Shown here piece after piece: positions 1,611 through 59,610 of a DNA stretch of 64,000 nt. This DNA is from Beroe forskalii (Eukaryota; Ctenophora; Nuda; Beroida; Beroidae): assembly GCA_011033025.1 (NCBI GenBank), contig WFMF01000054.1, positions 496,001 through 560,000 of the forward strand, written 5' to 3'. The position numbers and the translations under genes were made by a program. Position 1 is the first letter of the stretch. Each line of letters opens with the position of its first letter. Under the pieces are notes generated by a model. It did not search any database, had not been told where the DNA came from, and saw only the letters and a list, made by a program, of their open reading frames with translations.

Positions 1611-2210
1611 TTAACTGACATTTCCCCGGTTTTCTGTCGTGTTAACTTTATTAGTTATTTCCTTGTTGATAATACTATACGTAAAATTCTTACTGTATCC
1701 ATTATTACTTAACATTTCTACAATTTTCTCAACTTCATCATGAAATAGTTCCCACGAGCTACAAATTTTGTACGCTCGATCGACTAAGGTCCTAATTAAA
1801 CCTAACTTAAACTTAAACGGTGAAAAACTGAGAAAGTGAGTGAACACACCTGAGTGTGTCGGTTTACGGTATACTGTAATTGATATGTCCTCTGTACTAG
1901 AATTGCTGTCTTTAATGATAAGTAGATCTAAAATCGGCAATTTATCTGAAACTTCTTTATCACATGTAAACTTAATACTGGGATGTAAACTGTTTAAATA
2001 AGCTAAAAATCTGTTTGCATCATCTTCATTATCAAATACGGCTAAAGTATCATCTACATATCTACAAAATACTGTTAAAAAGAATGATTCGTAATTGTTC
2101 TGACTAATAAAAGTTATATTCAAATAATCGTGTTCCTCACGCCTAATCTTATCTTCTAACAAATGGTTCATAAAAATATCTGCTAAAATAGGTGCAAGTG
2201 GTGAGCCCAT
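1611..2210 (-). pseudogene. Reverse transcriptase, catalytic half (left copy)
   Basis: A frame of about 200 codons carries RT motifs in order: [15 protein letters not shown] (motif B region), then [12 protein letters not shown] with the catalytic YVDD box (motif C), then the LPILDLLI region and YRKPTHSG, which are standard in Penelope-like RTs. The frame opens to the left of the ATG ([14 protein letters not shown]), so the ATG at 2210 is internal to the original protein. A single-base frameshift separates it from the upstream RT half at 2278. The same break exists in the right copy, showing that the parent was already defective or that the two arms share an origin. Confidence 0.85.
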
Positions 2211-2277
2211 GGCACAACCATCTATCTGTTTATAATATTTGTTATTAAATATAAAACGTTATCCTTAAGGCAATGAT

Positions 2278-2988
2278 TCAAGGCTTTTCGAAAATAGTCC
2301 TTGTCATTCCATTCACTACTTGATCCTTAACTGCTACTCCCTTAATCCTAGGGTATAACGCATCAATAATGATGTTTATAGTTTCTTCTAGTGGTATGTT
2401 AGTGAATAAAGATACTACATCGTACGATACAAAATACTTATTGTTCAACTTGGCATCTCTAAGAAACTCAAGACTGAACGAATCCTTACACATATGTTTG
2501 GACTGTCTAAGTTCACTAAGCTGACGTCCTATCCACTGAGCGAAGGCATGATTGTAGCATCCGACCATCGACAGTATCGGTCTCAGTGGGGAGCCAGTTT
2601 TGTGAATCTTAGGCAGACCATACATAACAGGAATACTACCTGCACTAGGGTAAATTTCTTTGTACTCACTTTCTGATAAAATAGATTTAAAATTGCGGTA
2701 TATAAATGATTGAAATCGGCTTAAATAAGTAAGTGTTTCTTCCTTTTCTACTTCTACAAACTTGGATCTATCGTTCAAAATAACGTGCATCTTTTCAACA
2801 TATACAGTTTTATACATAATAACTACGGTCTGACCTTTATCTGCTTTAACTATAACTAAATTATGTAACTTCATTTTATCTTGAATACTCTTAATAACTG
2901 TGTGTACTTCGTCGGAGAAATGATAATTAGTACGTTTACTGTGAAAATAATTTCCTACATAGTCATTGTAACAATTAATAAGACAGTT
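2278..2988 (-). pseudogene. Reverse transcriptase, N-terminal half (left copy)
   Basis: The frame stays open upstream of its first ATG (2874) to about 2988, where the junction with the other copy lies. It shows IVKADKGQTVVIM, MYGLPKIHKTGSPLRPILS and SYDVVSLFTNIPLEETI, the fingers and motif A (catalytic aspartate in the YDVVSLF block) of Penelope-like reverse transcriptases. It ends in a premature stop after TIFEKP, before the region that should connect to the YVDD half. The 5' part of a full element is absent, so the copy is 5'-truncated. Confidence 0.85.
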
Positions 2989-3008
2989 TTTGAAGTAGTA
3001 TTCCTGTT

Positions 3009-8500: not shown

Positions 8501-11500
8501 ATATGCTAACTTACGAGCTATATTCAAACACAAGGAAATATAATTTTAGCGATTTTCACAGTATTTTGGTACAACGATTACTTGAAAACTAGTCGTCACA
8601 TTTTGATGAAACTTTCCAGTTATCTCAAGCATGACCCAGAGAACATAAAAACGTCAAAAAACTAGGGGTCGCCTCGAGCTATATTCAAAACACAAGGAAA
8701 TATAATTTAGCGATTTTCACAGTATTTTGGTACAACGATTACTTGAAAACTAGTCGTCACATTTTGATGAAACTTTCCAGTTATCTCAAGCATGACCCAG
8801 AGAACATATAAAACGTCAAAAACTAGGGGTCTATATGCTAACTTATTTGAGCTATATTCAAACACAAGGAAATATAATTTTAGCGATTTTCACAGTATTT
8901 GGTACAACGATTACTTGAAAACTAGTCGTCACATTTTGATGAAACTTTCCAGTTATCTCAAGCATGACCCAGAGAACATAAAAACGTCAAAAACTAGGGG
9001 TCTATATGCTAACTTACGAGCTATATTCAAACACAAGGAAATATAATTTTAGCGATTTTCACAGTATTTTGGTACAACGATTACTTGAAAACTAGTCGTC
9101 ACATTTTTGATGAAACTTTCCAGTTATCTCAAGCATGACCTTAGAGAACATAAAAAACGTCAAAAACTAGGGGGTCTATATGCTAACTTACGAGCTATAT
9201 TCAAACACAAGGAAATATAATTTTAGCGATTTTCACAGTATTTTGGTACAACGATTACTGAAAACTAGTCGTCACATTTTGATGAAACTTTCCAGTTATC
9301 TCAAGCATGACCCAGAGAACATAAAAACGTCAAAAAAACTAGGGGGTCTATATGCTAACTTACGAGCTATATTCAAAACACAAGGAAATATAATTTTAGC
9401 GATTTTCACAGTATTTTGGTACAACGATTACTCGAAAACTAGTCGTCACATTTTGATGAAACTTTCCAGTTATCTCAAGCATGACCCAGAGAACATAAAA
9501 CGTCAAAAAACTAGGGGTCTATATGCTAACTTACGAGCTATATTCAAAACACAAGGAAATATAATTTTAGCGATTTTCACAGTATTTTGGTACAACGATT
9601 ACTCGAAAACTAGTCGTCACATTTGATGAAACTTTCCAGTTATCTCAAGCATGACCCAGAGAACATAAAACGTCAAAAACTAGGGGTCTATATGCTAAAC
9701 TTACGAGCTATATTCAAACACAAGGAAATATAATTTTAGCGATTTTCACAGTATTTTGGTACAACGATTACTCGAAAACTAGTCGTCACATTTTGATGAA
9801 ACTTTCCAGTTATCTCAAGCATGACCCAGAGAACATAAAAACGTCAAAAAACTAGGGGGGTCTATATGCTAACTTACGAGCTATATTCAAAAACAAGGAA
9901 ATATAATTTTAGCGATTTTCACAGTATTTTGGTACAACGATTACTCGAAAACTAGTCGTCACATTTTGATGAAACTTTCCAGTTATCTCAAGCATGACCC
10001 AGAGAACATAAAAACGTCAAAAAATTAGGGGGTCTATATGCTAACTTAGGAGCTATATTCAAACACAAGGAAATATAATTTTAGCGATTTTTTAGCGATT
10101 TTTGATACAACGATTACTCGAAAACTAGTCGTCACATTTTGATGAAACTTTCCAGTTATCTCAAGCATGACCCAGAGAACATAAAAACGTCAAAAACTAG
10201 GGGGTCTATATGCTAACTTACGAGCTATATTCAAACACAAGGAAATATAATTTTAGCGATTTTCACAGTATTTTGGTACAACGATTACTTGAAAACTAGT
10301 CGTCACATTTTGATGAAACTTTCCAGTTATCTCAAGCATGACCCAGAGAACATAAAAACGTCAAAAAACTAGGGGGTCTATATGCTAACTTACGAGCTAT
10401 ATTCAAACACAAGGAAATATAATTTTAGCGATTTTCACAGTATTTTGGTACAACGATTACTCGAAAACTAGTCGTCACATTTTGATGAAACTTTCCAGTT
10501 ATCTCAAGCATGACCCAGAGAACATAAAAACGTCAAAAAACTAGGGGTCTATATGCTAACTTACGAGCTATATTCAAACACAAGGAAATATAATTTTAGC
10601 GATTTTCACAGTATTTTGGTACAACGATTACTTGAAAACTAGTCGTCACATTTTGATGAAACTTTCCAGTTATCTCAAGCATGACCCAGAGAACATAAAA
10701 ACGTCAAAAACTAGGGGGTCTATATGCTAACTTACGAGCTATATTCAAACACAAGGAAATATAATTTTAGCGATTTTCACAGTATTTTGGTACAACGATT
10801 ACTTGAAAACTAGTCGTCACATTTTGATGAAACTTTCCAGTTATCTCAAGCATGACCCAGAGAACATAAAAACGTCAAAAAACTAGGGGGTCTATATGCT
10901 AACTTACGAGCTATATTCAAACACAAGGAAATATAATTTTAGCGATTTTCACAGTATTTTGGTACAACGATTACTCGAAAACTAGTCGTCACATTTTGAT
11001 GAAACTTTCCAGTTATCTCAAGCATGACCCAGAGAACATGAAAACGTCAAAAAACTAGGGGGTCTATATGCTAACTTACGAGCTATATTCAAACACAAGG
11101 AAATATAATTTTAGCGATTTTCACAGTATTTTGGTACAACGATTACTCGAAAACTAGTCGTCACATTTTGATGAAACTTTCCAGTTATCTCAAGCATGAC
11201 CCAGAGAACATAAAAACGTCAAAAAACTAGGGAGTCTATATGCTAACTTACGAGCTATATTCAAACACAAGGAAATATAATTTTAGCGATTTTCACAGTA
11301 TTTTGGTACAACGATTACTCAAAAACTAGTCGTCACATTTTGATGAAACTTTCCAGTTATCTCAAGCATGACCCAGAGAACATAAAAACGTCAAAAAACT
11401 AGGGGGTCTATATGCTAACTTACGAGCTATATTCAAACACAAGGAAATATAATTTTAGCGATTTTCACAGTATTTTGGTACAACGATTACTCGAAAACTA

Positions 11501-11925
11501 GTCGTCACATTTTGATGAAACTTTCCAGTTATCTCAAGCATGACCCAGAGAACATAAGAACGTCAAAAAATTAGTGTGTCTATATGCTAACTTACGAGCT
11601 ATATTCAAACACAAGGAAATATACTTTTAGCGATTTTCACAGTATTTTGGTACAACGATTACTCGAAAACTAGTCGTCACATTTTGATGAAACTTTCCAG
11701 TTATCTCAAGCATGACCCAGAGAACATAAAAACGTCAAAAACTAGGGGTCTATATTCACATATTCAAACATGACCCAGAGAACATAAACGTCAAAACTAG
11801 TCTATATGCTAACTTACGAGCTATATTCAAACACAAGGAAATATACTTTTAGCGATTTTCACAGTATTTTGGTACAACGATTACTCGTAAACTAGTCGTC
11901 ACATTTTGATGAAACGTTTTCATGT
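5556..11925 (+). repeat. 171-bp satellite array, forward block
   Basis: About 37 head-to-tail copies of one unit. The period measured from the TATTTTGGTACAACG landmark at 10441, 10612 and 10783 is exactly 171 bp. Typical landmarks are ACTAGTCGTCACATTTTG, CAAGCATGACCCAGAGAAC and GGTCTATATGCTAACTTACG. Copies from ~9.7 to 11.7 kb are nearly identical. Copies from 5.6 to 9.6 kb differ mostly by one-base changes in A, G and T runs, with a damaged stretch near 8160-8280. Short open frames in it are by-products of the repeat. Confidence 0.95.
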
Positions 11926-13290
11926 TCTTAGGGTCATGCTTGACCTAACTGGAGAGTCATCAAATTTTGATGACTAGGCAGTTAGTTTTCGAGTAATAGT
12001 TGTACCAAAATACTGTGAAAATCGCTAAAATTACATTCCCTTGTGTTTGAATATATCTCGTAAGTTAGCAGATAGACCCCCTAATTTTTTGTCGTTTTCT
12101 TGTTCTCTTGGTCATGATTGAGATAACTGGAAAGTTTCATCAAAATGTGACGACTAGTTTTCGAGTAATTGTTGTACCAAAACAGGCCCGTAGCCAGGAT
12201 TTTTTCCGGGAGGGGCCCTTGCGCCGTGAGCGAAGCCAAGCTGCGGCAGGGGTCTGGGGGCGCAGCCCCCAGCGGGGTCCAGGGGCGGAGCCCCGGAAAA
12301 TTTAAGGGAAATTAGGGTGCTGTAGGATGAGTTTTACAATTAAGAAATGTACAGGAAATGTACAGGACGATATTTGTCAAAATCAGAGCATTGAAAAAGT
12401 ATACAATCAACTATAAGCGAGTTATAACAGTCAGAATAAGATTAAACTGCCACTATTTAACCAAGCCAAAGTATATTATTATGATTATCAGTCAAACAAC
12501 TTTTATTCTAGCTATTTTTTGAAATGGTACCTTTTCTTCCGAGGGGGGCTGCAGCCCCCCTAGCCCCCCCTCTGTCTACGGGCCTGTACCAAAATACTGT
12601 GAAAATCGCTAAAATTATATTTCCTTGTGTTTGAATATATCTCGTAAGTTAGCATATAGACCCCCTAATTTTTCGACGTTTTTATGTTCTTTGGGCCATG
12701 CTTGACCTAACTGGAAACTTTCATCTAAATGTGACGACTAGTTTTCGAGTAATCGTTGTACCAAAATACTGTGAAAATCGCTAAAATTTTATTCCCTTGT
12801 ATTTGAATATAGCTCGTAAGTTAGCATATAGACCCCCCTAATTTTTCGACGTTTTTATGTTCTTTGGGCCATGCTTGACCTAACTGGAAACTTTCATCTA
12901 AATGTGACGACTAGTTTTCGAGTAATCGTTGTACCAAAATACTGTGAAAATCGCTAAAATTTTATTCCCTTGTATTTGAATATAGCTCGTAAGTTAGCAT
13001 ATAGACCCCATAATTTTTTGACGTTTTTATGTTCTTCGGGTCATGCTTGAGATAACTGGAAAGTTTCATCTAAATTTGACGACTAGTTTTCGAGTAATCG
13101 TTGTACCAAAATACTGTGAAAATCGCTAAAATTATATTTCCTTGTGTTTGAATATAGCTCGTAAGTTAGCATATAGACCCCTAATTTTTGACGTTTTCAT
13201 GTTCTCTGGGTCATGATTGAGATAACTGGAAAGTTTCATCAAAATGTGACGACTAGTTTTCGAATAATTGTTGTACCAAAATACTGCGAA
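11926..13290 (-). repeat. 171-bp satellite array, inverted block
   Basis: The same unit reads in the opposite orientation from about 11926, where GATGAAAC of the last forward unit runs straight into GTTTTCATGTTCTTAGGG of an inverted unit. There are roughly 5-6 copies once the MITE at 12183-12586 is removed. These copies are more divergent from the consensus than the late forward copies (GGGTCATGCTTGACCTAACTGG against the forward AGTTATCTCAAGCATGACCC). The array ends near 13290 with a degenerate unit. Confidence 0.9.
12183..12586. mobile_element. 404-bp MITE, hAT-like, inside satellite
   Basis: The ends are inverted repeats (CAGGCCCGTAG at left, CTACGGGCCTG at right). It is flanked on both sides by TACCAAAA (12175-12182 and 12587-12594), an exact 8-bp target duplication. 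The empty site, a single TACCAAAA, is visible in every other satellite unit. It has GC-rich subterminal stretches (GGGTCTGGGGGCGCAGCCCC) and an AT-rich middle with no open frame, so it is non-autonomous. The 8-bp duplication and CAGG-type end fit the hAT superfamily. Confidence 0.85.
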
Positions 13291-13505
13291 AATCGTATTT
13301 TGTTACATATCATACACCGAGTTTTCCGCAGTATTCTTGGTACACTTTTGATTTAGGTCTTAGTGCTATACTTTAATGGATTTCCTTGTGACGGAACGCG
13401 CGAAAATTGACACTTCGCGATCTTAGGCTGCTCATTACTTTTTGTGCCTACTATAGAGCATAAAATCTTTGATCTGGAGACAACAAAAAATCATTTTTGT
13501 CCAAG

Positions 13506-18572: not shown

Positions 18573-20525
18573 GGCCAATTTGAGGTTTATTTCAAAATTG
18601 TGTCAAATTTGACACAATTTTGTACTCGCAAAAATTTCTATGTTCAGGATCAGTGCAGTTTAGAAATGAATTTTTATTTTTTCGAATTTCGTTCTGAAAC
18701 TTTATCTGCACATGTTTCGGGCAATTTGGAAGTAAATTAGGCCGATTTGAGAATTTCTGATTTTTGCACGTGATGCGCGTTTGTCGCACGTGCAGTACTG
18801 AAAATGGCTTATTAGTGCATTAGATATAACCCTATTATGATATTCTATGAATACAAATCGATATCAGGCTGTTTTGGGGTTAAAAATGGCCAATTTGAGG
18901 TTTATTTCAAAATTGTGTCAAATTTGACACAATTTTGTACTCACAAAAATTTCTATGTTCAGGATCAGTGCAGTTAAGAAATGAATTTTTATTTTTTCGA
19001 ATTTCGTTCTAAAACTTTATCTGCACATGTTTCGGGCAATTTGGAAGTAAATTAGGCCAATTTGAGAATTTCTGATTTTTGCACGTGATGCGCGTTTGTC
19101 GCACGTGCAGTACTGAAAATGGCTTATTAGTGCATTAGATGTAACCCTATTATGATATTCTATGAATACAAATCGATATCAGGCTGTTTTGGGGTTAAAA
19201 TGGCCAATTTGAGGTTTATTTCAAAATTGTGTCAAATTTGACACAATTTTGTACTCGCAAAAATTTCTATGTTCAGGATCAGTGCAGTTTAGAAATGAAT
19301 TTTTATTTTTTCGAATCTCGTTCTAAAACTTTTTCTGCACATGTTTCGGGCAATTTGGAAGTAAATTAGGCCGATTTGAGAATTTCTGATTTTTGCACGT
19401 GATGCGCGTTTGTCGCACGTGCAGTACTGAAAATGGCTTATTAGTGCATTAGATGTAACCATATTATGATATTCTATGAATACAAATCGATATCAGGCTG
19501 TTTTGGGGTTAAAAATGGCCAATTTGAGGTTTATTTCAAAATTGTGTCAAATTTGACACAATTTTGTACTCGCAAAAATTTCTATGTTCAGGATCAGTGC
19601 AGTTTAGAAATGAATTTTTATTTTTTCGTTTTATTTTTTCGTTCTAAAACTTTATCTGCACATGTTTCGGGCAATTTGGAAGTAAATAAGCCGATTTGAG
19701 AATTTCTGATTTTTGCACGTGATGCGCGTTTGTCGCACGTGCAGTACTGAAAATGGCTTATTAGTGCATTAGATGTTACCCTATTATGATATTCTATGAA
19801 TACAAATCGATATCAGGCTGTTTTGGGGTTAAAATGGTCGATTTAGAGTTTATTTCAAAATTGTGTCAAATTTGACACAATTTTGTACTCGCAAAAATTT
19901 CTATGTTCAGGATCAGCGCAGTTTAGAAATGAATTTTTATTTTTTCGAATTTCGTTCTGAAACTTTATCTGCACATGTTTCGGGCAATTTGGAAGTAAAT
20001 TAGGCCGATTTGAGAATTTTCTGATTTTTGCACGATGCGCGTTTGTCGCACGTGCAGTACTGAAAATGGCTTATTAGTGCATTAGATGTAACCTATTATG
20101 ATATTCTATGAATACAAATCGATATCAGGCTGTTTTGGGGTTAAAAATGGACAATTTGAGGTTTATTTCAAAATTGTGTCAAATTTGACACAATTTTGTA
20201 CTCGCAAAAATTTCTATGTTCAGGATCAGCGCAGTTTAGAAATGAATTTTTATTTTTTCGAATTTCGTTCTGAAACTTTATCTGCACATGTTTCGGGCAA
20301 TTTGGAAGTAAATTAGGCCGATTTGATTTTTGCACGTGATGCGCGTTTGTCGCACGTGCAGTACTGAAAATGGCTTATTAGTGCATTAGATGTAACCCTA
20401 TTATGATATTCTATGAATACAAATCGATATCAGGCTGTTTTGGGGTTAAAAATGGTCAATTTGAGGTTTATTTCAAAATTGTGTCAAATTTAGAAATTTG
20501 ACACAAATTTGACACAATTTTGTCG
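18573..20525 (+). repeat. ~315-bp satellite with palindromic core
   Basis: About six copies. The AGGCTGTTTTGGGG landmark falls at 18866, 19181, 19495, 19815, 20127 and 20432 (spacing 305-320). Each unit has a perfect 30-bp palindrome: CAAAATTGTGTCAAA followed by its own reverse complement. Each also has a GCACGTGATGCGCG / TCGCACGTGCAG pair with CACGTG-type boxes. The last palindrome (20475-20520) is rearranged into a longer inverted structure. Short plus-strand frames of 72-86 codons recur with the unit and are not genes. Confidence 0.95.
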
Positions 20526-28108: not shown

Positions 28109-29090
28109 GTGGCTGTTAGGAGGAAGTAAACTGTTAATAACGTCTTGATTATAATCTTCATGATCCTAACACAGCATTGACCACGATAATTAGCATAAAC
28201 ATATTTGAATATTTCATAATCGCTATATACAAACTATTTAAACTTATCTTCCCCCATATTATGAAGACAAGAATACCATGTTTACTCTGTCATTTGTCAA
28301 GCTAGGCTAGTAATCTGCTAATATCAATTAGATGGCATGGTAATTAATTCTACCTTCCTTAATATTTTAATATTATGTTGTCATCAGCTAGGACGTCTGT
28401 GAGAACTAGTACTCTGGGAAGTTAATTGGTTTTCCTCAACATGAAGGCCCTGAATCACAAAGTTCCATGTAATGAGGTACTGAGTGTGAGCGAATCTAGG
28501 ACACATGCATGTGAGCTGCTAATCTAGGACACATGCAGAGTACTGTGTTGATCTACAAAGTGTCACAAATGAGTGAAATGGCACACCTCAACAGAGGGTG
28601 TCCAATGTTTACAAGAATGAGAGCAGCAGCCACTGTTGGGAGCTGGTTGGCTCCTGTAGTTACCCAATACAATGATCAGGACCATAGAAACGATCTATAA
28701 ATACTAAATATTCATACATCCATACAAGTTTGATAGTACCGCCACTCAGTATACAAATTGAAAACATTTCTTCACTATAAAGCCCTGATATTATGGTGAG
28801 ACAATAGCTCTTATAATATATATGAGATTATATCTGGACCAATTAGAGCGCATTCTATGAGTCAGGTGGCACCCCACAATTAGGGGAGGTCGGCATGTGT
28901 GCCACTAAAGTGTAGTTTCACACATGTCTATCAGCAGACAGAGGGTCTGAGGAGAGGGAATCCTCCCTTGCCGGGGAGGTGAAGTCCTATAAGTTGCTTG
29001 TTAATTGTCCCATGCAGAGTGGAGAGTGCCGGCTAGTGCTACCACCTGTCCCCTCTGTGGTGGAACCCACGCTCTCTAATCTGTGTGTGT

Positions 29091-29300
29091 CTGAGTGGTT
29101 GTAGGCAGTGTGTCACAGCGTGTGTGTTTGTGTGAGTCTGAGTGGTTGTAGGCAGTGTCACAGCGTGTGTGTGTGTGTGTCTGAGTGGTTTTAGGCAGTG
29201 TCAGTGTGTCTGAGTGGTTGTAAGCAGTGTGTCACAGCGTGTGTGTGTGTCTGAGTGGTTGTAGGCAGTGTGTTAGAGCGTCTGTGTAGTGTGTAGTGTG
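29091..29300 (+). repeat. Irregular GT-rich minisatellite
   Basis: Five copies of TCTGAGTGGTTGTAGGCAGTG separated by variable GT runs; spacing is 29-47 bp. Confidence 0.85.
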
Positions 29301-29540
29301 TACGGTGTGTGCGAGCCATTAACAGTCACGTGATCTGAACACTAAACATCGAGTACATTTTTATCTACATATTATATGTGTGCATGATCAGGACACGTAT
29401 TCTGCTACTTCAGTGATCTGTGTCTCATCCAATCAGGTGATGCGTATAGCAATAGGGGAAGCTGCAACAATCCGACATGAAAATGATATTAGAGGCCGTG
29501 GTAACACTAATAACATTACACTGTGATATGTAATATATAA

Positions 29541-29634
29541 CTATAGGACAGCATTGAGATGCATATTAGTGCATATTGTACGAGGCGAAGCCGAGTTCAA
29601 TATGCACAATATGCATCGAAATGATGTCCTATAG
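29541..29634. mobile_element. 94-bp foldback MITE
   Basis: The ends are CTATAGGACA and TGTCCTATAG. The arms pair over ~35 bp, including GCATATTGTAC-like words, around a loop containing GAGGCGAAGCCGAG, which is itself a small hairpin. It lies just outside the 6.5-kb palindrome. Confidence 0.7.
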
Positions 29635-29820
29635 AGTCTAGTCAGTTAAGGGCTGAGGTCTGCAACGTCTTGAAACAAAATAATGACCGGTTCAGAGATG
29701 TTGTTTTAGGCCTCCTGATTGCAAATCCGGAGAGACCCAATTTTGTTAGGTGGTGGAACATGGCGCAATTGCGCCATTTCGGCGCCGTGGCGCCGAAAAT
29801 ACTAACTTTTGATGGGAAGG

Positions 29821-30480
29821 TCGTAGAGACTCCATTTTTAGCTTAAAAGAACCGCAATGGCCATGTTTATATACGACTTGTTAATAAACATATGCCCTAA
29901 AACGCTCACAAACCGAGTTATGGGCGAAAAACTGTTTTTAGCCCATATGCGGGCTTGAAATCGGCGATTTTCTTAACTCGGGTCAGGAAGGTCGTAGAAA
30001 CTCCATTTTTAGCTTAAAAGAATCGCAATGGCCATGTTTATATACGACTTGTTAATTAACATATGCCCTAAAACGCTCACAAACCGAGTTATGGGCGAAA
30101 AACTGTTTTTAGCCCATACGCGGGCTTGAAAACGGCGATTTTCTTAACTCGGGTCAGGAAGGTCGTAGAAACTCCATTTTTAGCTTAAAAGAATCGCAAT
30201 GGCCATGTTTATATACGACTTGTTAATAAACATATGCCCTAAAACGCTCACAAACCGAGTTATGGGCGAAAAACTGTTTTTAGCCCATATGCGACTTGAA
30301 ATCGGCGATTTTCTTAACTCGGGTCAGGAAGGTCGTAGAAACTCCATTTTTAGCTTAAAAGAATCGCAATGGCCATGTTTATATACGACTTGTTAATAAA
30401 CATATGCCCTAAAACGCTCACAAACCGAGTTATGGGCGAAAAACTGTTTTTAGCCCATACGCGGGCTTGAAATCATCATC
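29821..30480 (+). repeat. 171-bp tandem repeat in left arm
   Basis: Four copies. The landmark TCGTAGA(A/G)ACTCC falls at 29821, 29992, 30163 and 30333. The unit includes ATGGCCATGTTTATATACG and AAAACGCTCACAAACCGAG. It is unrelated in sequence to the 5.6-13.3 kb satellite despite the same unit length. Confidence 0.95.
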
Positions 30481-30681
30481 AAAAAGTAATAATGTGTAAA
30501 GGGATATTTGGAGGGTTCAAACAATTTTCCAATATCAGGGAAGTCATAAACTTGAAAATGATGTAAAGTGAATATTGAAGCATGCTTATATTGACACATG
30601 GAAAAAGTCACTATAATGATATGTTACTACATAATCTGTATCTAAGAATGTTAAGTGTCCTCGCATCCCATCCATAGAATG

Positions 30682-32193
30682 CTAAGCTGTCGATATGTTG
30701 CACTTTCCTTTGCAGCCACATCTGAGTAAACACACCTTGCCAGACTTTGTACAGGAACATGTTTCACATTTGGCTGACCGACATATCAGGTCATTCAAGG
30801 TGACCTCTGACCCTTCTGTCCATGTGGCGGTGATGGAACCCTCAGAGATGCTCCATCCCATTTCGGCAAAGTTTGGGCAATCGTTTTGAGCAAACGTGTT
30901 TCCCCATACCCATTACCCAACCAACTTGTTAACATGCTCGAAGAACATGGAGCCTTAAGCTGTTAGTTGTGGGAGGTAGTTCCCTCAGATCCTTACCTTC
31001 CAAAAAGGAAAATCCCCTCGGTAGCAGATTTCAAAATCCCCTCGGTTTCAAGCTTGCTCGCGGCGAAGAGCCAATTAAGTGTTAATTAAGTACAGCCCGC
31101 CGCAGGCGAAAATTTTCAAGGTTTTGCACATGAATCTGCCTTTAAGATCAATTTGTTTATTAATGCATAATGTGATTCAAACAGCCAGCCGTTGGCAAAA
31201 ATTGTGAAAGTATTACATCTGAGATTGTGTGTAGGATCAATTTAGTGACATTACTGAATCACAACAGCCCGCCGCAGGCGAAAATTTTTAAGGTTTTGTG
31301 CCTGAGTCTGCCTCTGAGATCAATCTGGTAATGTTTAATTTGATTAACAATCCTTTTCTTGCCAAAGGCGTTTCTATCAATTATCTATCATTGAACTATT
31401 AAGCTATTACAAAAGTTTAAAATGGTCAGTATTTTCCTCTTGTGCGGCATATCGCTTTTCCCTCACCTCACTTCCCCTCACCTTACATCTCATCACGAAT
31501 CACCGTAATTCCCCTCACCATACTTCCCCTCGCCATACTTCCCCTCGAACGCGAACCTTAATTAGTTAATTCCCCTCACCATACTTCCCCTCACCATACC
31601 TCCCCTTACCTTAATAATTACTTAATTACCCTTACTTCCCCTCATCTTAATTACTTAAGTCCCCTCACTTTACTTTCACTCAGTTTATGCCCCCTCACCT
31701 CAATTCCCCTCAGCCCATCTGACCATTACACCATCTTACCCTCTACTTCACTTCCCCTTGCTTCACTACCCACTTCCCCTCGGCCCTCACCTTATGATCA
31801 CTTCCCCTCACGTCCCTTTGAATGTTTGTATTCCCCTCACATATGCATCTTTACAGTTAAAATTGATCTACGTTGTTATTAGAACACTTTAGTTGCAAAT
31901 AAATACAATTTTTTTAATCAAATTTTTATTTGAGATTTTGACTTGAAAATCCCCTCGGTTTTGAAAAAAATCCCCTCGGTAGCAGTGCTACTTCTGCTAC
32001 CCACTTTTGGAAGGTAAGCTCAGATCATCAGTTGTCATCGTCAGAAACTTATCAAGTAGAAGAAGCACACAAACCTTTCAATGAGCGGCAGACATCTGGA
32101 AATTGTCTCCATGGTAGGTTGACATGACAATTGTTGGAAACGAGCTGACAAATCTTCTTGTTCAGGGAACGATGCCCATGAGCCCATGATTTG
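30682..32193 (-). pseudogene. CxC-tailed transposon-type protein, split copy
   Basis: Minus-strand copy of the protein described at 32469-33065. The N-terminal part (MGSWASFPEQEDLS) lies at 32193-32027, and the C-terminal part, including the cysteine-rich tail, at 30983-30682. The 1027-bp MITE at 30992-32018 interrupts it at the codons for the DDLRELPPT block. Single-base changes break the frame of the C-terminal piece as well, so no continuous frame remains. Confidence 0.6.
30992..32018. mobile_element. 1027-bp hAT-like MITE with exact 8-bp duplication
   Basis: The ends are CTTACCTTCCAAAA and TTTTGGAAGGTAAG (14 bp, perfect). CTCAGATC flanks both sides (30984-30991, 32019-32026). The uninterrupted sister arm at ~32750-32770 has a single copy, so the empty site is known. 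Inside are three ~90-bp units starting ACAGCC(C/A)GCCG (31083-31370), then some twenty irregular TTCCCCTCAC words (31420-31840), then an AATCCCCTCGGTAGCAG block repeated from the left end. No coding frame. The 8-bp duplication indicates the hAT superfamily. Confidence 0.9.
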
Positions 32194-32210
32194 AGGGGAT
32201 GGAAAAACAA

Positions 32211-32254
32211 TAAGAGCCGATTGTCTGCTTCTTCTAGCAGACAATCGGCTCTTA
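32211..32254. other. Perfect 19-bp hairpin at palindrome centre
   Basis: TAAGAGCCGATTGTCTGCT, loop TCTTCT, then the exact complement. It lies within the ~360-bp centre between the palindrome arms. Confidence 0.85.
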
Positions 32255-32274
32255 ATACATATTATACAACACTA

Positions 32275-32293
32275 GCAGGCCCGTTGGGCCTGC
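32275..32293. other. GC-rich hairpin at palindrome centre
   Basis: GCAGGCCC, loop GTT, GGGCCTGC, preceded by ACTA. A partly similar ACTAGCAG-start with GGCCTCCGGCC occurs at 37298-37325, hinting at a shared mobile end. Confidence 0.6.
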
Positions 32294-32468
32294 AAATACA
32301 TGCTTTGAATCGAGGAAATCAGAAATGTGTAGTTAGGACTGTCGACTCTGATGTAATTGTCATTTGCACAATTCCTAGACCATGATTCAAATTTCAAGTT
32401 ATTCATTGACTTTGGAACTGGGCAAAATAGACGTTGGTATTCTATAAATTCATGTTATGAAACAATAG

Positions 32469-33065
32469 GAGTTCCTACAGCACTGGGCTTTTTTCCATGC
32501 CCTCAGTGGCTGTGATTCCACTGCTTCCTTTTTCAGACACAATAAAGGACAAATCATGGGCTCATGGGCATCGTTCCCTGAACAAGAAGATTTGTCAGCT
32601 TGTTTCCAACAATTGTCATGTCAACCTACCATGGAGACAATTTCCAGATGTCTGCCGCTCATTGAAAGGTTTGTGTGCTTCTTCTATGGATCCTCATCTG
32701 TTTCAAAGCTAGGTCATCTCCGCCTTGATAAGTTTCTGACGATGACAACTGATGATCTGAGGGAACTACCTCCGACAACTAGCAGCTTAAGGCTCCATGT
32801 TCTTCGAGCATGTTACCAAGCTGGTTGGGTATGGGGAAACACGTTTTCTCAAAACGATTGCCCGAACCTTGCTGAAATGGGATGGAGCATCTCTGAGGGT
32901 TCCATCACCGCCACATGGACAAAAGGGTCAGAGGTCACCAGTTACCTCTTGAATGACCTGATATGTCGGTCAGCCAAATGTGAAACATGTTCCTGTACAA
33001 AGTCTGGCAAGGTGTGTTTACTCAGATGTGGCTGCAAAGGAAAGTGCAACATATCGACAGCTTAG
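32469..33065 (+). pseudogene. CxC-tailed transposon-type protein, C-terminal part
   Basis: The frame is open from 32469 (a stop lies just before it, and there is no ATG there) to the TAG at 33063-33065, about 198 codons. Motifs in order: FHALSGCDSTASFF, GSWASFPE, LPLIERFVCFFYG, ELPPTTSSLRLHVLRACYQ, AGWVWGN, GWSISEGS, then a cysteine-rich tail CETCSCTKSGKVC...CGCKGKC. I know this layout (GCDST, WxxFP, LPPT, YQAG.WG, Cys tail) from a large family of uncharacterised invertebrate proteins linked to mobile DNA; it has no confirmed biochemical role. The N-terminal portion of the family is missing, so this is a truncated relic. It sits in the right inner arm of the palindrome; the mirror copy is at 30682-32193. 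Confidence 0.6.
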
Positions 33066-33126
33066 CATTCTATGGATGGGATGCGAGGACACTTATCATT
33101 CTTAGATACAGATTATGTAGTAACAT

Positions 33127-33378
33127 ACACTCAGTTTTTTTTATAAGAAACTTATTGAAATCCTAGGCTAAAAGTTTCTTATTTTTTCACGATTTTGAGC
33201 CTAAAAGTTTCTTAATCGGTTTCTTAATTCTACATACCGACATACCGTACGAAAAATGTCTACGAAATTTCCAACATAGGAACCTACTGTGTAGACTGTA
33301 GTTGAGGATTAGAATCGAACCTTCTGATATTTTCAGTTAAATTATACACTTCTAAGCATGTACCTATCTTTAAAGATT
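33127..33378 (+). repeat. Dispersed repeat A, first copy
   Basis: Reverse complement of 16400-16645. It starts CACTCAGTTTTTTTT directly after TA, and this is where the right palindrome arm is interrupted. It is therefore probably the left part of one insertion within the arm. Confidence 0.75.
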
Positions 33379-33638
33379 TGTGCAGCTGTATACAATAATG
33401 TTCAGGGATCTTCATCAAATGTTCTTCCAAAAAAGTTTGAAATTTTGAAATTTAGATAATATCTAAATCCTATAATGCTTGGAACTTTTGGAAATAGATA
33501 TGGAACTGTAATAGTGTCCTGTCGCAACAACAATTTCTAAATTTCTGTTTTGTGCTTTAGTATCTGGCATGTTACTTTAAACCGAAAAATCATGAAAGAT
33601 TCATTTTCTAAATTTCTATTCTATATTATGATCAATTA

Positions 33639-34020
33639 CTCTTCAGTCTCAAATAGACGGGGGGGGGACGATTGCAGTTATTTGGATTTTTACTACGGTG
33701 GGGGACAGTTATTTAACACCCTCCTCGTTTAGAAATTTTGAAAAAAATACATACATAAATCAAAGAAAAAGTCATATTTTTTGTTAGAATTGAGCAAAAT
33801 CAAGCAGCAACCTGAAAGCTTTGCCAACTGTTTCTCAGAATTACGATCTTTTTCTCGATCTGAGTCCATATCTTTGATCAATTTGGGTATTTCAAACCAT
33901 TCGATTGAAATTTACTTCCCCCTCCCTCTTATTTGCAACCCCCCCTTTTTGCGACAATTTTGGAAAACCTACACAGGGGGACAGTTATTACAGCCCCCCC
34001 GTCTATTTGAGACTGAAGAG
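33639..34020. mobile_element. 382-bp TA-flanked MITE derived from HIRAN element
   Basis: Terminal inverted repeats CTCTTCAGTCTCAAATAGAC plus a G run, mirrored at the right end, with TA on both sides. The left 200 bp match 17295-17100 in reverse, including the last ~20 codons of the HIRAN frame in antisense. So this is an internally deleted copy that kept both ends and a scrap of the gene. The TA duplication is typical of the Tc1/mariner-type group. Confidence 0.8.
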
Positions 34021-34089
34021 TATCACATATCCAGTGTAATACTGTAATAGAAGTTCAATAGAAGTACTAGATTAGTTTCGGAATGTTCA

Positions 34090-34652
34090 CAATCAAAAAT
34101 GGGGGTCTGGGGGCGCAGCCCCAGAAGCCAGACGTATCATGTTAAAAGAATTTCAGTTGCAATAGGATTTTATACACAAATTTCACCCAATTGTCCCTAA
34201 CTCAAAAAAAGTGAATTGGGACAGGGACATTTGGGACAAATGAGACATTTGGGACAAATCAAAAAGTGGGACAATTGGGACAAAAACTGGTAAAAAAATG
34301 GGACAATTGGGACATTTGGGACACATGAAACAGAACAAAATGGGTCTCCAAAAATGAATTGGGACAAGGAAAAATGTGACATTTGGGACAAATGTGACAT
34401 TTGGGACAAATTTGAAATTTGGTACAAATGTGACATTTTGGAGGAATATGACATTATGGACTGAGATAAATGGGACTCAAATGGTTGTGTTTGTGAGCAG
34501 CATTTTAGCATTATTTTCCTCGCAACATATGATATGAGAAAGATGGCAGTTCCACTGCAACAACAGCTGATTTAATGTTAAAATATCAGTTGAACTGACT
34601 TATTTACCTACTTACCTAGTATAGTAGAATACTAGAGTAGAAGTATGGTTTA
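34090..34652. repeat. GC hairpin motif and GGGACA-rich tract
   Basis: 34100-34125 carries GGGGTCTGGGGGCGCAGCCCC, also at ~12250 and, inverted, at ~38392. From 34197 to 34440 GGGACATTTGGGACAAAT-like words repeat irregularly; the same tract resumes at 35085-35150. Frames on the minus strand (SQMSHLSQMSH) are repeat artefacts. Confidence 0.6.
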
Positions 34653-34964
34653 GGTAAATTGAGCAATCCGTATAGGCCAGTATCACACCTGTATCACGCC
34701 AGCTCCACGCCAGTTTTGCACCAGTATCATGCCTACCTCACACCAGCATCGCTCCAGTATCACACTAGTATCACGCTATGAGCATGCCAGTAGCACTCCA
34801 GTATCAGATCATATACTGGCGTGTTACTGGTGTCCTGGCTTTTAAGTAAGTTTTGATTGGCGCAATACTGGCGTGATACTGAAGTGCTACTGGCATGCTA
34901 CTGGCGTGTTACTGGCGCAATACTGGCACGTGCTACTGGGCCAAAACAGATCGCTCAATTTACC
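34653..34964. mobile_element. 312-bp foldback MITE, 8-bp duplication
   Basis: The ends are GGTAAATTGAGC and GCTCAATTTACC, flanked by ATGGTTTA at 34645-34652 and 34965-34972. The left half is built of CCAGTATCAC-type words and the right half of their complement (GTGATACTGG), so the whole forms a hairpin made of a short repeat. Confidence 0.85.
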
Positions 34965-35319
34965 ATGGTTTAGTAGCATGGAAATAAGTTTCTGACAGAA
35001 ATAGTCAGAAATGATTTGAATGATAAAACAGGGACAAATTTGAAAATCACTTATTTTTTCCCGCTTTTTTCTTTGTCCCAAATGTCTCAAATGACAGTCC
35101 CTAAATTTAAAAAAAAAGTAAATTGGGACAGGGACATTTGGGACAGTGACATTCCCCCCTATAGTGACTTTTTCCATGTGTCAATATAAGCATGCTTCAA
35201 TATTTACTTTACATCATTTTCAAATACTTCAAGTTTATGACTTCCCTGATATTAGAAAATTGTTTGAACCCTCCAAAAATCCCATTACAAATTATTAGAA
35301 CTTTTTGATGATGATTTCA

Positions 35320-35990
35320 AGCCGGTGGTGTGGGCAAAAAGCAGTTTTTTGCTCATTACTCGGTTTGTGAGCGTGTAAGGACATATGTTGATGAACAAGT
35401 CGTATATAAACATGGCCATTGCGATTCTTTTAAGCTAAAAATGGAGTTTCTACGACCTTCCTGACCCGAGTTAAGAAAATCGCCGATTTCAAGCCCGTGT
35501 ATGGGCTAAAAACAGTTTTTCGCCCATAACTCGGTTTGTGAGCGTTTTAGGGCATATGTTTATAAACAAGTCGTATATAAACATGGCCATTGCGATTCTT
35601 TTAAGCTAAAAATGGAGTTTCTACGACCTTCCTGACCCGAGTTAAGAAAATCGCCGATTTCAAGCCCGCGTATGGGCTAAAAACAGTTTTTCGCCCATAA
35701 CTCGGTTTGTGAGCGTTTTAGGGCATATGTTTATTAACAAGTCGTATATAAACATGGCCATTGTGGTTCTTTTAAGCTAAAAATGGAGTTTCTACGACCT
35801 TCCTGACCCGAGTTAAGAAAATCCTCGATTTCAAGCCCGCGTATAGGCTAAAAACAGTTTTTCGCCCATAACTCGGTTTGTGAGCGTTTTAGGGCATATG
35901 TTTATTAACAAGTCGTATATAAACATGACCATTGCGGTTCTTTTAAGCTAAAAATGGAGTCTCTAAGACCTTCCTATCAAAAGTTAGTAT
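35320..35990 (-). repeat. 171-bp tandem repeat in right arm
   Basis: Mirror of 29821-30480, about four units, with nearly the same sequence. Confidence 0.93.
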
Positions 35991-37587
35991 TTTCGGCGCC
36001 ATGGCGCCAAAATGGCGCAATTGCGCCATGTTCCACCACCTAACAAAATTGGGTCTCTCCGGATTTTCAATCAGGAGGCCTAAAACAACATCTCTGAACC
36101 GGTCATTATTTTGTTTCAAGACGTTGCAGACCTCGGCCCTTTTTTAGCACTTAGCAGCCATACAGAGTCTCAGGTCTTTTGCTTTAATTAGATTCCCAGC
36201 CCGTAATATGATAAGAATTTAGAATTCCTCTCTTCAGCCCGGCTTCACATTAGATCATAGTGGAGGCCGGGGTGGAAGTACTGATGTAGTTCAAAGAACA
36301 TGGTGCCCTGCAGGAGCACACGACTAGGCCAAAACACCGTACATCAGCAATTACAGGAGAAATCCGGTGCCACCAGTCCCGTGATCTACACCGCTAAACG
36401 TAGTGTCGAAGTAGTGACAACAGCATGATGATGGGCACACGATTAGAGAGAAGCAATAGAAATCTAATTTCAGTGGCTGATTTAAGTGAGAGTCACGTGT
36501 ACACTGTAAAGGGGACTAAAGTGTTTATTGTACAACAGAGAATGTATAGGTACATGGTACAGGGAACTTCAAACACTGAAGTTTTCATTATACATCAGAG
36601 AATGTATATTATCTACATTCTATAATCTAAAGGGCACTGTAAATACTGTAGTGTCTTATTTTCATAGAATGTATATGGTTTAGAAGAGCCCAAGTGATTA
36701 ATGTATGAATTGTGACTTACCAAGAGTGGTAACCCCAATGGAATAATTTAAAAAAATTGGCTGGGAATGTACTAATTCAAGTAAATAGTGGCTGGTTTTA
36801 GTTTATAGGCCGGCTGATTCCTGTATGTTCTGCCTCTAATAACCGAAATTATACACGTAATTTGTCTCTTCTGGTGCCTGGAGGAACAATACAAGCAAAG
36901 ATGCTTTTAATTAAACATGGTGATGCTTTCTATGAATTTACTATGGTCATTCAAATTTTGTTCATTGAAATCATTGTCACTTAAGTTTAGCACAAGGATA
37001 TGGTTTGGGAATTGCTGGGAAGGCGAGACTTTTTTGGGAATGTAGCGGCTGGTTTAGGAATGGGGTGACAGATTTAGGAATGCAAGCGCTGATTATGGCA
37101 TTCTGAAAAAAATCATGCTTTTGAGTCCTTCATAAAATGCGTCCGAATTATGTCATCAAAAATGGAACTATTTTTAGTTTTTCAGTTATATAGAATTTGA
37201 ATGGGAATTTCTTAATTTCATTTCCATATTCCCAACATAATTCCACTGAGGCGGTAACACACATAGCATTGTAAATAATTTTATGATATTATAATCAACT
37301 AGCAGAACCCATGGCCTCCGGCCATCGTTCACAATTTTTTCGCTTCAGCAATTCGTACAGTATAATGCAGTACTGTGGTTCTTATCAGTGATGAGGTCAT
37401 ATTTTAATCGGGTGTGCCTACTTCTCTATGTGATGTCTATATGTCAGGTGGTGTCAAACGTCACTGGTACTCTGGTATGAACATTCCCATCATCGGCAAT
37501 CGGCATGCTTGATTGGGTACTGAGTGGTGTCAGAAAATCTGTGGCTATATAAGCCACCGGACAGACAGAAATCATAAACCGGACAGA

Positions 37588-55924: not shown

Positions 55925-58592
55925 GTGTTTAAATTCAATTCAATTCAATTCAATTATAAATTTTTACAGCACAAAACATGAAATATATTTTTCTCTGGGT
56001 TATATAATGAAGCATTTGGGATGTGCTGAGGGTAGGCACCAAGTCAAATTTAAAATCTGTTAAAAGGGCCTCCCACCAAGGACTAAGTATAGGATAGGTA
56101 ACCATATTGGCAAAAATAGTGGTAATACCTTCTGTTGTTAAAAACTTCAACATAACGTTTACCCTCAATACTGGTAAATACTGGCAATAATTTGAATAAA
56201 AAATAGAAACAACTTCATAATTTAATTGGGTTAAAAAGAATAATAGGTACTGTAGTATTATTTTAACTTATATACAGAAATAAGGCTGCATTTTTGTGAC
56301 TTGCCGAGGTCAGGCCGCATTTGAGACTTGCCCGAAGTCAAATTTGAAACAAAATAATCAATAATCAAAAAAGTCAGTTTCAATAAATTAATTAAAAAAA
56401 CACTGGTAATAAACTGCAACATCCAGGAGAATCATGATTTGCCTTAATCATTTTAGGGATAGAGATTACAATTTCAATTTATAAACATAGTCAAATGCAT
56501 TATTCACAGTATAATTTGAGTTTCCAATAGCAGATTCTAGTAATTCACTTTTGTACTTTTTGCCAAATACCTTAGCATCACTAAGATTTCTTAGTTCAGA
56601 TGGCACAGAATTCCATACTTTGGCACCAAGGTAATAAAAATTTTTCAGATTTTTTGATCTGGGAGTATATAAATTGCAACTTGCCCCATCTCTACTTCCT
56701 CCTGAGATATAATTGAACTTATTGATAAAGTTGGATGGGCTTTCCCCTTTCAGAATTTTAAACATATAAGAAGATAAATGGACTTGACGCCTTAAATGAA
56801 GAGGTAACCATTTCATATCTTTGTAAACCTTAATGCTACTTTCTGTTTTATCAACTCCTAAAGCAATTTTAGCAACTTTCTTGTAAAGAATATCAAGTTC
56901 ATGAAGTTTGGTCTTGGATGCTCTTCCATAGATGGTGTCAAGATAATCGAAATGTGGTAGCACAAGTGAGTTAGCAAACATTTTCCTATACTTTATAGGT
57001 AAAAGACTACTTCCCCTGTACATAGCTCCTATTCTCTTATGGATCTTCTTCTTGATGTAATCTACATGAAAGTCAAATCTAAGGCAATTGTCAACCATCA
57101 GTCCTAAATATTTGTAGACCTTGCATTCTTTAATTGAACAACTGTCATTCAGCTTAATTTTGACAGAAAAATTTGCATTATCAAAAACTAAGATTTTAGT
57201 TTTATCTATATTTAGGGAGAGCTTATTCACACTTAACCATTTCATAATTGTAAGCATTTCTATTTTGATACTCAAGTAGGTTTTACGGCAGATGTTTTCA
57301 AATAACATAGCTCCATCATCTGCAAATAAGTAAGGGTTAGATAAGTTGCATGCATTTACAAGATCATTGATATAGATACTAAATAGAAGTGGGCCCAGAA
57401 GACTACCTTGTGGAACACCAAACTTGATGAACAGGTAACCACTTTTTTGATTCAAGAATTTTGTAGCTTGTTTCCTATGCGTAAGATAATTTTCAATCCA
57501 CAGAATCACCATTCCATCAACTCCATAGAATTTAAGTTTGTCTATAAGGATTTTATGATCTACAGTATCGAATGCTTTTTTGATATCTAGAAATATAATT
57601 GCAGGTGTATTCCCCTTACTTTTACTATCAAATATTTTGTCGAACATGTCGAGAGTAAGATAAGTAGTAGAATGGTTTTTTCTAAACCCATATTGGTGTA
57701 TACTTAGTAGTTTATTACTTTCGAAGTAAGAAGTTAATTGCTCATTAGCAAAGTTTTCAATACATTTAGAGATTAGAGGCAAGATAGAGATTGGTCGATA
57801 GTCATTAGGATCATTAGAGTCTCCACCCTTGAAAATAGGAGACACAACAGCTATCTTGCAGCTTTCTGGGAACTGGCCAGTTGAAAGACTAAGATTAACT
57901 ATGTATGTTATACTTGGTAGGATAATTGGCAGTATACTTTTAAAAACAATCAGTGGTAACTGATCAGTGATAGCTTTACCAGATGGTAATGATAAGATGT
58001 AAGATTTTATTGTTTCACTAGTTATTTCATTAAAAGAGTCAAGGCTGCAATTATATTTTGTAGTAGGTAAGAAATCACTATACTTAATGTTATTAAAGAT
58101 GGGAACTTCTGCATTCAACTTAGGACCTATTTCACAGAAGTGTTTATTCAGGTTTTCTGCATTTATGATATTCTCATCTGTCTTAGGCTGAGTATTGGTC
58201 ATGGCAGATGAGTTGGTGGCTAGTTTTATTGATTTCCATATTCCCTTAAGGTCGTTCTTAGCACTTTTTGAACTTAGATCATTGATAAGATTCTCACGCT
58301 TATTGGCTTTAGTAATCCTATTTGTTTCATTTCTTTGCTTCCTGTACTCATCCCATGCAAGATGTGCACTAATACATCTATTACAAATATTACAACTATT
58401 GCAATTTGATTCTTCTAATTTTTTAAGTTTCTTTTTGAACTTCTTATGCAACCTCTTTTTTCCTTTAATGGCATTCATACTTTCTTTAGAGGGCTTGAAG
58501 ATAAACTTTTCATGTTTTTTAATACTTTTGAGAGGAAAAAAATGATCATCATCAATAGTTGGATTAAGGGTACAGTTTGGGGGACAAGCCAA
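55925..58592 (-). mobile_element. 5'-truncated non-LTR retrotransposon (LINE)
   Basis: It consists of the RT frame (56466-58592), a ~510-bp 3' untranslated part and, at the far 3' end, five AATTG/AATTC pentamers (55931-55955), the short-repeat tail expected of CR1/L2-type elements rather than poly(A). No AP endonuclease is encoded, and a stop codon lies just four codons upstream of the frame, so the copy begins inside ORF2. A target duplication could not be assigned. Confidence 0.8.
56466..58592 (-). CDS. LINE reverse transcriptase, uninterrupted
   Basis: 708 codons with no stop. The frame begins at a TTG after an in-frame stop; the first ATG is codon 39, so no authentic start is present. 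An unusual CxxCxxCxxC cluster is at residues 64-73. RT motifs: RPISILPLISK (~266-276), AIIFLDIKKAFDTVDH (motif A, ~331-346), GVPQGSLLGPLLFSIYINDL (motif B, ~392-411), YLFADDGAML (motif C, ~421-430), NKLSLNIDKTKILVF (motif D, ~456-470), YKYLGLMVD (~493-501). The C-terminus has the RSKNLKNFYYLGAKVWNSVP block common in CR1/L2-like elements. All catalytic aspartates are present. An open frame in a 5'-truncated copy points to a recent insertion. It would act on element RNA at the target site in the nucleus if a full copy supplied the nuclease. Confidence 0.9.
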   Translation of the reverse strand: MACPPNCTLNPTIDDDHFFPLKSIKKHEKFIFKPSKESMNAIKGKKRLHKKFKKKLKKLEESNCNSCNICNRCISAHLAWDEYRKQRNETNRITKANKRENLINDLSSKSAKNDLKGIWKSIKLATNSSAMTNTQPKTDENIINAENLNKHFCEIGPKLNAEVPIFNNIKYSDFLPTTKYNCSLDSFNEITSETIKSYILSLPSGKAITDQLPLIVFKSILPIILPSITYIVNLSLSTGQFPESCKIAVVSPIFKGGDSNDPNDYRPISILPLISKCIENFANEQLTSYFESNKLLSIHQYGFRKNHSTTYLTLDMFDKIFDSKSKGNTPAIIFLDIKKAFDTVDHKILIDKLKFYGVDGMVILWIENYLTHRKQATKFLNQKSGYLFIKFGVPQGSLLGPLLFSIYINDLVNACNLSNPYLFADDGAMLFENICRKTYLSIKIEMLTIMKWLSVNKLSLNIDKTKILVFDNANFSVKIKLNDSCSIKECKVYKYLGLMVDNCLRFDFHVDYIKKKIHKRIGAMYRGSSLLPIKYRKMFANSLVLPHFDYLDTIYGRASKTKLHELDILYKKVAKIALGVDKTESSIKVYKDMKWLPLHLRRQVHLSSYMFKILKGESPSNFINKFNYISGGSRDGASCNLYTPRSKNLKNFYYLGAKVWNSVPSELRNLSDAKVFGKKYKSELLESAIGNSNYTVNNAFDYVYKLKL

Positions 58593-59610
58593 ATAGGGCT
58601 AAAATCGGTGGGTTGTCTTAATGTTGCTGAAAAATGGTTAAAAATCCTGCAATTGACCTCAAAGTAAGGTTATTATGACTCTCAAATGATTAGAGCATAT
58701 AGTGTTGTAAAGTAAATGGTTAAAATTCATTCCAAATGTGGTTTTTTGGTGGTTAAAGTAGAAAAAGTCACATTTAACCACTTTCTGAAATTCGTTTTTT
58801 GGCTGAAAATGGTCTCAGAAGCTGATATAAGCCTTCATTTTAGTATTTCATTGAAATTTCCACTTAAAAGGCTAAATTGTTGCCCATAAATGTGGTTAAA
58901 ATAAACATTGGTAAAATAGCTTATAATCTGTAATCATCAAAATAGTGGTTAATAATGGCCTGTAGGAATTGGAAACTGTCATACACATATTTTGATGATA
59001 GAAACTACATATATAATATGAAAATATGCACTTTGTTGATTTTGGTGGTTAAATAGATCAAAAGGCATTTTAACCTAAATTTGGGGATTTTAACCACTAA
59101 ATTGGCACCTTTTGTCCTGAATTTGAAGGAGAATGTTCTCTAAGGTGTTAAAGTATATGCAATCAAATTTATATCATTCTGAACATTTTTGGGTGCTGAA
59201 AGGGTGGTTAAAGGGACAATATCCAGAAATGGCCATTTTAAAAAAAAATGCTGTTTTGGGCCATAAAGTGGTTGAATTGAATTTTTGATGGTTAATTCCA
59301 ATTCAGAAAGAAACATACCATTAAGATAAACTACCAAACTGAATTTGAGCCAATTATAACTGCGTTGTGGAGTTATGTGGTTAAAACTTCAAAAACCAGT
59401 TGTCCGACTAGCCTAAGAAATAAAGGTTATCGTTAACCACCACCAAGACTACATCAGATACAGAAAAATTACTGGTGTTGTGAATTTCTGGCATTATTGG
59501 CAGACCACTTTACAACAAAAATTTTGATAGTCTGGTCTATTTTGGTAGTTATTGTGCGGTTAAAACTAATCATAACGTCATTATCACAGGTTAAAACGGT
59601 AAATTGAAGA
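58593..59610. repeat. Region with many TGGTTAAA words
   Basis: Roughly twenty GGTTAAA or complementary TTTAACC words at irregular spacing over 1 kb, mainly on the plus strand. No constant period and no coding frame. It directly abuts the 5' end of the LINE. Confidence 0.5.

Follow-up and report, generated by a model that had tools for sequence, protein, structure and literature searches.

Foldback elements whose arms carry tandem repeats are already known from Drosophila. In the available portions of the respective reports, Galileo, a foldback-like element of the P superfamily, is described as having long terminal inverted repeats (TIRs), some with tandem repeats, into which inner sequence, even 69 bp of the end of an open reading frame, has been recruited (PMC4168063). 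The foldback element Tetris of Drosophila virilis contains ~220-bp tandem repeats inside its TIRs, which are linked to satellite DNA (PMC4079207, in part). The accessible part of a description of Academ transposons gives target site duplications (TSDs) of 3 or 4 bp for AcademX and of 9–10 bp for AcademH, and ties the difference to the encoded nuclease and helicase (PMC10045372). Among the titles and abstract openings listed in an open-licence library for foldback together with Academ, none describes such an element, and those listed for Academ with XPG are off topic. Here we describe a palindrome in a 64,000-nucleotide stretch of the genome of the ctenophore Beroe forskalii (the window; C625:496001–560000 of the 216-Mb genome, which comprises 1134 contigs). 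The palindrome, at positions 29635–36139 of the window, is real and is part of a mobile-element family. It has no transposase of its own and is, therefore, a non-autonomous derivative at most; it is quite likely a foldback derivative of an AcademX-like DNA transposon.

Architecture and ends of the element

The outer arms of the element (29648–30289 and 35500–36141) are 642 nt long, inverted, and 98% complementary, as expected for the large palindrome proposed in the initial annotation of the window. Further inward, blocks of the arms pair at 88–99% (for example, 30620–30799 with 32948–33127 and 32057–32193 with 32550–32686, both at 99%, and 30472–30556 with 35228–35312 at 88%). Each arm begins with a tip of ~166 bp, followed inward by a 171-bp repeat in 3.9 copies and by the mirrored end of a gene (Table 1). 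The repeats had been thought to tip the arms; they are present in both, but begin ~166 bp inside the tip. The mirrored gene fragment noted at the same time is there, with the GCDST motif in the right copy and the cysteine-rich tail in both copies. The nested insertion at 30992–32018 is flanked by a perfect 8-bp duplication, CTCAGATC, at 30984–30991 and 32019–32026. No Rfam match was found within 29000–37000.

Table 1 Parts of the foldback element in the window.
Feature	Position	Strand	Basis
Full extent of the surviving foldback element; left end intact, right outer end missing	29635–36139		Arm comparison and end alignment
Outer TIR AGTCTAGTCAGTTAA, A-type end	29635–29649	+	Alignment with relatives
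Left tip, 96–98% identical in several other loci	29650–29814	+	Genome matches
Left-arm 171-bp tandem repeat, 3.9 copies	29815–30474	+	Repeat detection
Inner left arm, in which the left copy of the nuclease gene has its 3′ end (from 30682)	30475–30991	-	Arm and frame comparison
Nested insertion CTTACCTTCC...GGAAGGTAAG, ~1 kb	30992–32018		8-bp duplication at both sides
Left gene copy resumed to the symmetry point, internal deletion of ~0.28 kb	32019–32228	-	Arm comparison
Symmetry centre, 17-bp inverted repeat, spacer TTCTTCTA, common to ten loci	32212–32253		Locus comparison
Open frame of 198 residues for the C-terminal part of the nuclease (FFHALSGCDST ... Cys tail)	32469–33065	+	Frame comparison
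Sequence block without counterpart in the left arm (nested insertion or insertions)	33127–35159		Arm comparison
Inner spacer of the right arm	35160–35312	-	Arm comparison
Right-arm 171-bp repeat, 3.9 copies	35313–35975	-	Repeat detection
Right tip, B-type side; outer end known from relatives missing	35976–36139	-	End alignment

The left 351 bp of the element have 129 genome matches (40 of 1473 candidates scored), and the scored matches include, by eye, 13 inverted pairs 3.6–8.4 kb apart besides that of the window itself. The comparison of family copies covered 23 loci: the window, L009–L028, L049, and L050. Homology across the copies runs 15 bp past position 29650, where the left end had initially been placed; the true left end is at 29635, and the 15 additional base pairs belong to the TIR. 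They read AGTCTAGTCAGTTAA and are followed by GGGC in one type of end (A) or by AGCAAAAAAAGGGC in the other (B). The sequence AGTCTAGTCAGTTAA occurs at 60 exact places genome-wide (reversed control 0) and the B end at 31 places with up to three mismatches (control 0). An A-type 18-mer, which at one mismatch also catches B ends, occurs at 104 places with up to two mismatches (control 10). Fourteen of the 14 two-ended pairs among L009–L028 have one A and one B end. In L049, a coding relative whose shared TIR spans 286 bp at 95% identity, the A-type end is the 3′ end and the 5′ end is B-like.

Other copies and target duplications, for which a genome search had been proposed, are both present. The TIRs of the relatives start (T)AGTCTAGTCAGTTAA and are directly abutted by 3-bp TSDs in 15 of the 15 pairs with both ends, none of which has a 4-bp duplication. 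The outermost TIR base is T in 14 of these pairs and A in one (L010); the corresponding base of the window, 29634, is G. Eight of the 23 loci were excluded from the count: the window, because its right end is lost; L015, the right TIR of which is 5 bp shorter; L016, which is composite; L022, L025, L026, and L027, which have a single end; and L050, the left end of which was not found. At the right terminus of the window copy, no sequence beyond 36139 can be recognised as the expected outer end (an equally good alignment was obtained with 706 of 1000 shuffles).

Several of the ends have peculiarities. The right TIR of L015 is without one TAGTC unit and reads TTAACTGACTA followed by TTA; by eye, TTA is the target duplication, which would fit use of the inner TAGTC. 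In L016 (C35:113800–121500), an A-type tip is joined to the apparent end of another element (TCGCGTCATGCACCTTTAA), and the locus is chimeric or composite. A 94-bp hairpin, CTATAGGACA...TGTCCTATAG, at 29541–29634 of the window directly adjoins the left end of the element, and in L045 (C35:184340) a related end lies beside the same TGATGTCCTATA sequence as at the left end in the window.

Symmetry centre and origin of the palindrome

The arms meet at a perfect inverted repeat of 17 bp, the halves of which are separated by 8 nt. The same arm junction, TAAGAGCCGATTGTCTGC-TTCTTCTA-GCAGACAATCGGCTCTTA, is present in ten of the 23 loci, in this or the reverse orientation and with minor differences. A genome-wide search with up to three mismatches located the centre at nine places (six identical, two with one mismatch, and one with two; reversed control 0), and the tenth locus, L017, has three extra nucleotides. 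The centre falls at the codons for EEADNRLLL of a nuclease gene, and the matching stretch in the coding relative L049 is GAAGAAGCAGATAACCGGCTC. It had been stated that only the right gene copy extends past the symmetry point. However, both copies reach the centre, and the left one is internally deleted, so that 18 nt (32194–32211) correspond to 296 nt of the right copy (32254–32549), a stretch that continues the coding homology. Unlike in the window, both gene copies are long in L009, L013, and L011, among others.

Since ten of the 23 loci share the centre, one founder palindrome was mobilised; a single founder event followed by mobilisation best explains the common junction. The idea of a foldback family with satellite arms is borne out by this centre together with the shared ends and the 3-bp duplications of the relatives. 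Foldback artefacts of sequencing reads do exist, according to the available part of one report (PMC12870357). However, the ten loci have one centre in different flanks, which makes an assembly inversion unlikely. Eight of the ten have 3-bp TSDs, and substitutions and indels distinguish the two arms of a copy. It is, therefore, hardly conceivable that the palindrome is an assembly or long-read artefact or a simple local inverted duplication.

The founder would have kept both native ends, A and B. Because one A and one B end are retained while the gene end is present in both arms of the ten loci, we infer that copying of the A arm, including its tip, 171-bp repeats, and 3′ gene end, lengthened the B arm inward up to the EEADNRLLL codons. 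There the two arms would have been joined, with the loss of the transposase and of the 5′ part of the nuclease gene. The copying may have been repair synthesis templated by the A arm, which entered through the shared TIR and ended at the centre. The palindrome would then have transposed with 3-bp duplications such as those seen in the relatives, probably in trans by the enzymes of full-length relatives, since the ends are shared with them. The locus L012, which has one gene copy and repeat-bearing TIRs, may be a pre-palindrome ancestor or, equally, a recombination product.

Arm identity was compared in the ten loci with both gene copies. The gene segments are 97.87% identical within elements versus 96.36% between same-type arms of different elements (0 of 10,000 permutations of the within-element pairing), and there is no fixed difference between A and B arms. 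Because the gene-segment arms of one copy are more alike than those of different copies, the arms have probably been homogenised, presumably by gene conversion. This is countered by the tips of the ten elements, which have no within-element excess (95.07 versus 95.32), and by the partner arm being the nearest opposite arm in 5 of 10 cases for the gene and 2 of 16 for the tip. The tips do have a within-element excess (95.9 versus 92.3) when the comparison is broadened to 16 loci from mixed subfamilies.

The ratio of non-synonymous to synonymous polymorphism (pN/pS) is 0.79 among 21 foldback gene copies, a set from which copies shorter than 380 bp, L023, and the left copy of the window were left out. 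The corresponding divergence ratio (dN/dS) is 0.11–0.13 among the window and the coding relatives in contigs C913 and C536, and 0.21 between those in C536 and C180, and the pair from C536 and C274 yielded no value; with synonymous divergence (dS) of 1.35–1.80, these ratios are rough. By these values, the gene fragment is under little constraint in the foldbacks, and the gene has been constrained between lineages; the mirrored fragment is most likely a passenger. It is very unlikely that the palindrome functions now, with its mirrored, partly open nuclease ends giving rise to a repressor-like protein or a read-through hairpin RNA silencing full-length relatives. Open frames of 288 and 289 residues do persist in C406 and C345, and a hairpin RNA would be expected from the structure if it were transcribed; however, the pN/pS value and the stops in some copies argue against such a role.

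Coding relatives and class placement

The 198-residue frame has no Pfam match, and homologous coding traces extend upstream of it to the centre. Frames related to the window fragment are present in C913 (76% identity) and C536 (74%). Contig C913 contains a 4.3-kb related element with both TIRs, the TSD ATT, a 188-residue end of a transposase-like frame, and a 432-residue nuclease frame. In C536, frames of 195, 913, and 486 residues are accompanied by a related right TIR; the frames in C180 are 220, 934, and 476 residues long, and in C274 a single 1513-residue frame spans the transposase-like core and the nuclease. The motifs DN(x)D, DxxLY, and a C-terminal E (D, D, E) are present in four of four transposase frames, with patterns that were written after seeing the sequences. 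The longer relatives encode a transposase-like core and a FEN1/XPG-patterned nuclease with a cysteine tail and, judging by the frame comparison, the GCDST/CxC fragment of the window is the end of that nuclease. Only this nuclease end is present in the window element, which encodes no transposase, and none of 24 transposase matches in the genome lies within the ten centre loci.

The nuclease of Academ transposons is of the XPG type, and its tail is a Cys8 finger. Six nuclease sequences from the relatives share an invariant series of D-Y-K, EAD, DxD, and GxD motifs and the tail cysteines; we take the series to reflect the arrangement of the active-site acids in FEN1/XPG. Seven nuclease sequences were combined into a core profile, trimmed by hand, which was compared with the genome's own XPG/FEN1/GEN1 profile. 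The score was 27.7, with the motifs paired, versus 13.3 for the reversed profile, and none of 100 column shuffles reached it (maximum 22.8). The tail of the protein from C392 matches the Pfam TCR/CXC domain (E = 1.3e-6) over its cut-off. The support for XPG homology of the nuclease is only moderate. Matches below the Pfam cut-off in frames of C925 (PTHB1_hp, 0.0089, and APD1-4_N, 0.00065) were taken as chance.

Initially, no named superfamily could be assigned to the element. It now has a provisional place near AcademX, owing to the 3-bp duplications and to the nuclease that the longer relatives encode; membership is probable, not proven. Compared with the description of AcademX (PMC10045372), the 3-bp duplications, which are within the 3–4 bp given there, and the nuclease beside a transposase-like core in the relatives are the same. 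What sets the window copy apart is the missing transposase, the palindrome derived from a single founder, and the 171-bp repeats within the arms. The very long inverted repeats with tandem repeats inside them and the little unique sequence at the centre are those of a foldback element, as are, at the level of the family, the target duplications and dispersed copies.

PIF/Harbinger transposons combine a 3-bp TWA-type target with a Harbinger transposase; here, one of 15 TSDs is TWA and there is no Pfam transposase match. The CAC...GTG termini of CACTA/EnSpm are not found either, since the termini read TAGTCTAG... An origin from another superfamily with 3-bp TSDs (PIF/Harbinger, CACTA/EnSpm, or Zator), in which case the nuclease gene would not be diagnostic of Academ, is unlikely. 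In its favour, Pfam provides no transposase match either way, and TSD length alone suits several superfamilies, according to portions of two reports (PMC10045372, PMC12730594). However, the ends are TAGTC and not CAC, TWA is rare among the TSDs, in C274, C536, and C180 the transposase-like core has the nuclease fused to it or as its neighbour, and the element in C536 ends with a related TIR.

Several observations weigh against a foldback derivative of an AcademX-like transposon. The window copy has no testable TSD because its right terminus is broken. No close coding parent (>90%) of the foldback was found; C913, at 76% amino acid identity, retains no more of a transposase-like frame than its end, and a left TIR or end was sought in C536 and not found. 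In L010, the core lies in the opposite orientation with respect to the A and B ends, which suggests recombination between inverted arms. The HH-suite probability of the core-profile match is only 15% (uncalibrated P 0.0018), Pfam and PDB sequences gave no XPG match for the nuclease, and an earlier whole-protein profile test was negative for XPG, with the reversed control outscoring the real one. The CXC domain was called in one of the six nuclease-bearing proteins scanned, that of C392.

As described in the portions of the Galileo report cited above, that element has long TIRs, in some cases with tandem repeats, and gene-end recruitment in common with the window element. However, Galileo belongs to another superfamily, and the window element mirrors a far longer gene end and has one centre that recurs in ten loci. 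Tetris differs by its 8–10-bp TSDs and suggested Mutator affiliation, and no coding copy of it was found there (PMC4079207, in part).

The 171-bp repeat in the genome

The genome contains 2084 places that match a 26-mer from the 171-bp unit, against none for the reversed control; 134 of them fall in the 23 loci. Among the first 100 matches listed (exact, contigs up to C242), many convergent pairs 0.7–6.5 kb apart were recognised by eye. Nine contigs up to C242 have nuclease matches; C35, C158, C181, C209, and C228 have such matches inside listed repeat pairs, and C99, C132, C180, and C225 have none there. At the loci L061 (C181) and L062 (C1), the inverted repeats also contain the repeat and measure 660 and 817 bp, respectively; their tips are unlike those of the window element. 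The right end of L061 starts with TAGTCTGGTC, like the family of the window, and a broken nuclease is still inside. Because L061 and L062 share the repeat despite their differing tips, the 171-bp repeat belongs to a wider clan of elements.

It is conceivable, though rather unlikely, that the chemistry by which this lineage transposes itself gives rise to the palindromes and the satellite arms. The transposon-borne FEN1/XPG-like nuclease would then act on flap or hairpin intermediates, and TIR-templated copying would repeatedly make, homogenise, and spread palindromes together with the 171-bp repeat, which is now dispersed genome-wide and common to families with differing tips (L061 and L062).

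The window includes a second palindromic satellite block at 5576–13295. Its 171–172-bp repeat is in the + orientation at 5576–11755 (two arrays) and inverted at 11983–12182 and 12585–13280. The period equals that of the repeat in the element. At 18573–20491, a 315-bp unit is repeated 6.1 times in tandem. Two frames at 1611–3006 (-) resemble a Penelope-like reverse transcriptase, and a 710-residue frame at 56466–58598 (-) resembles a LINE reverse transcriptase.

A foldback, satellite-armed element that is tied to coding relatives of the same genome makes the step from a coding transposon to a palindrome readable from sequence. The ten loci from one founder constitute a natural series for the study of arm homogenisation, and the family provides a link between a transposon clan and the dispersed 171-bp repeat.

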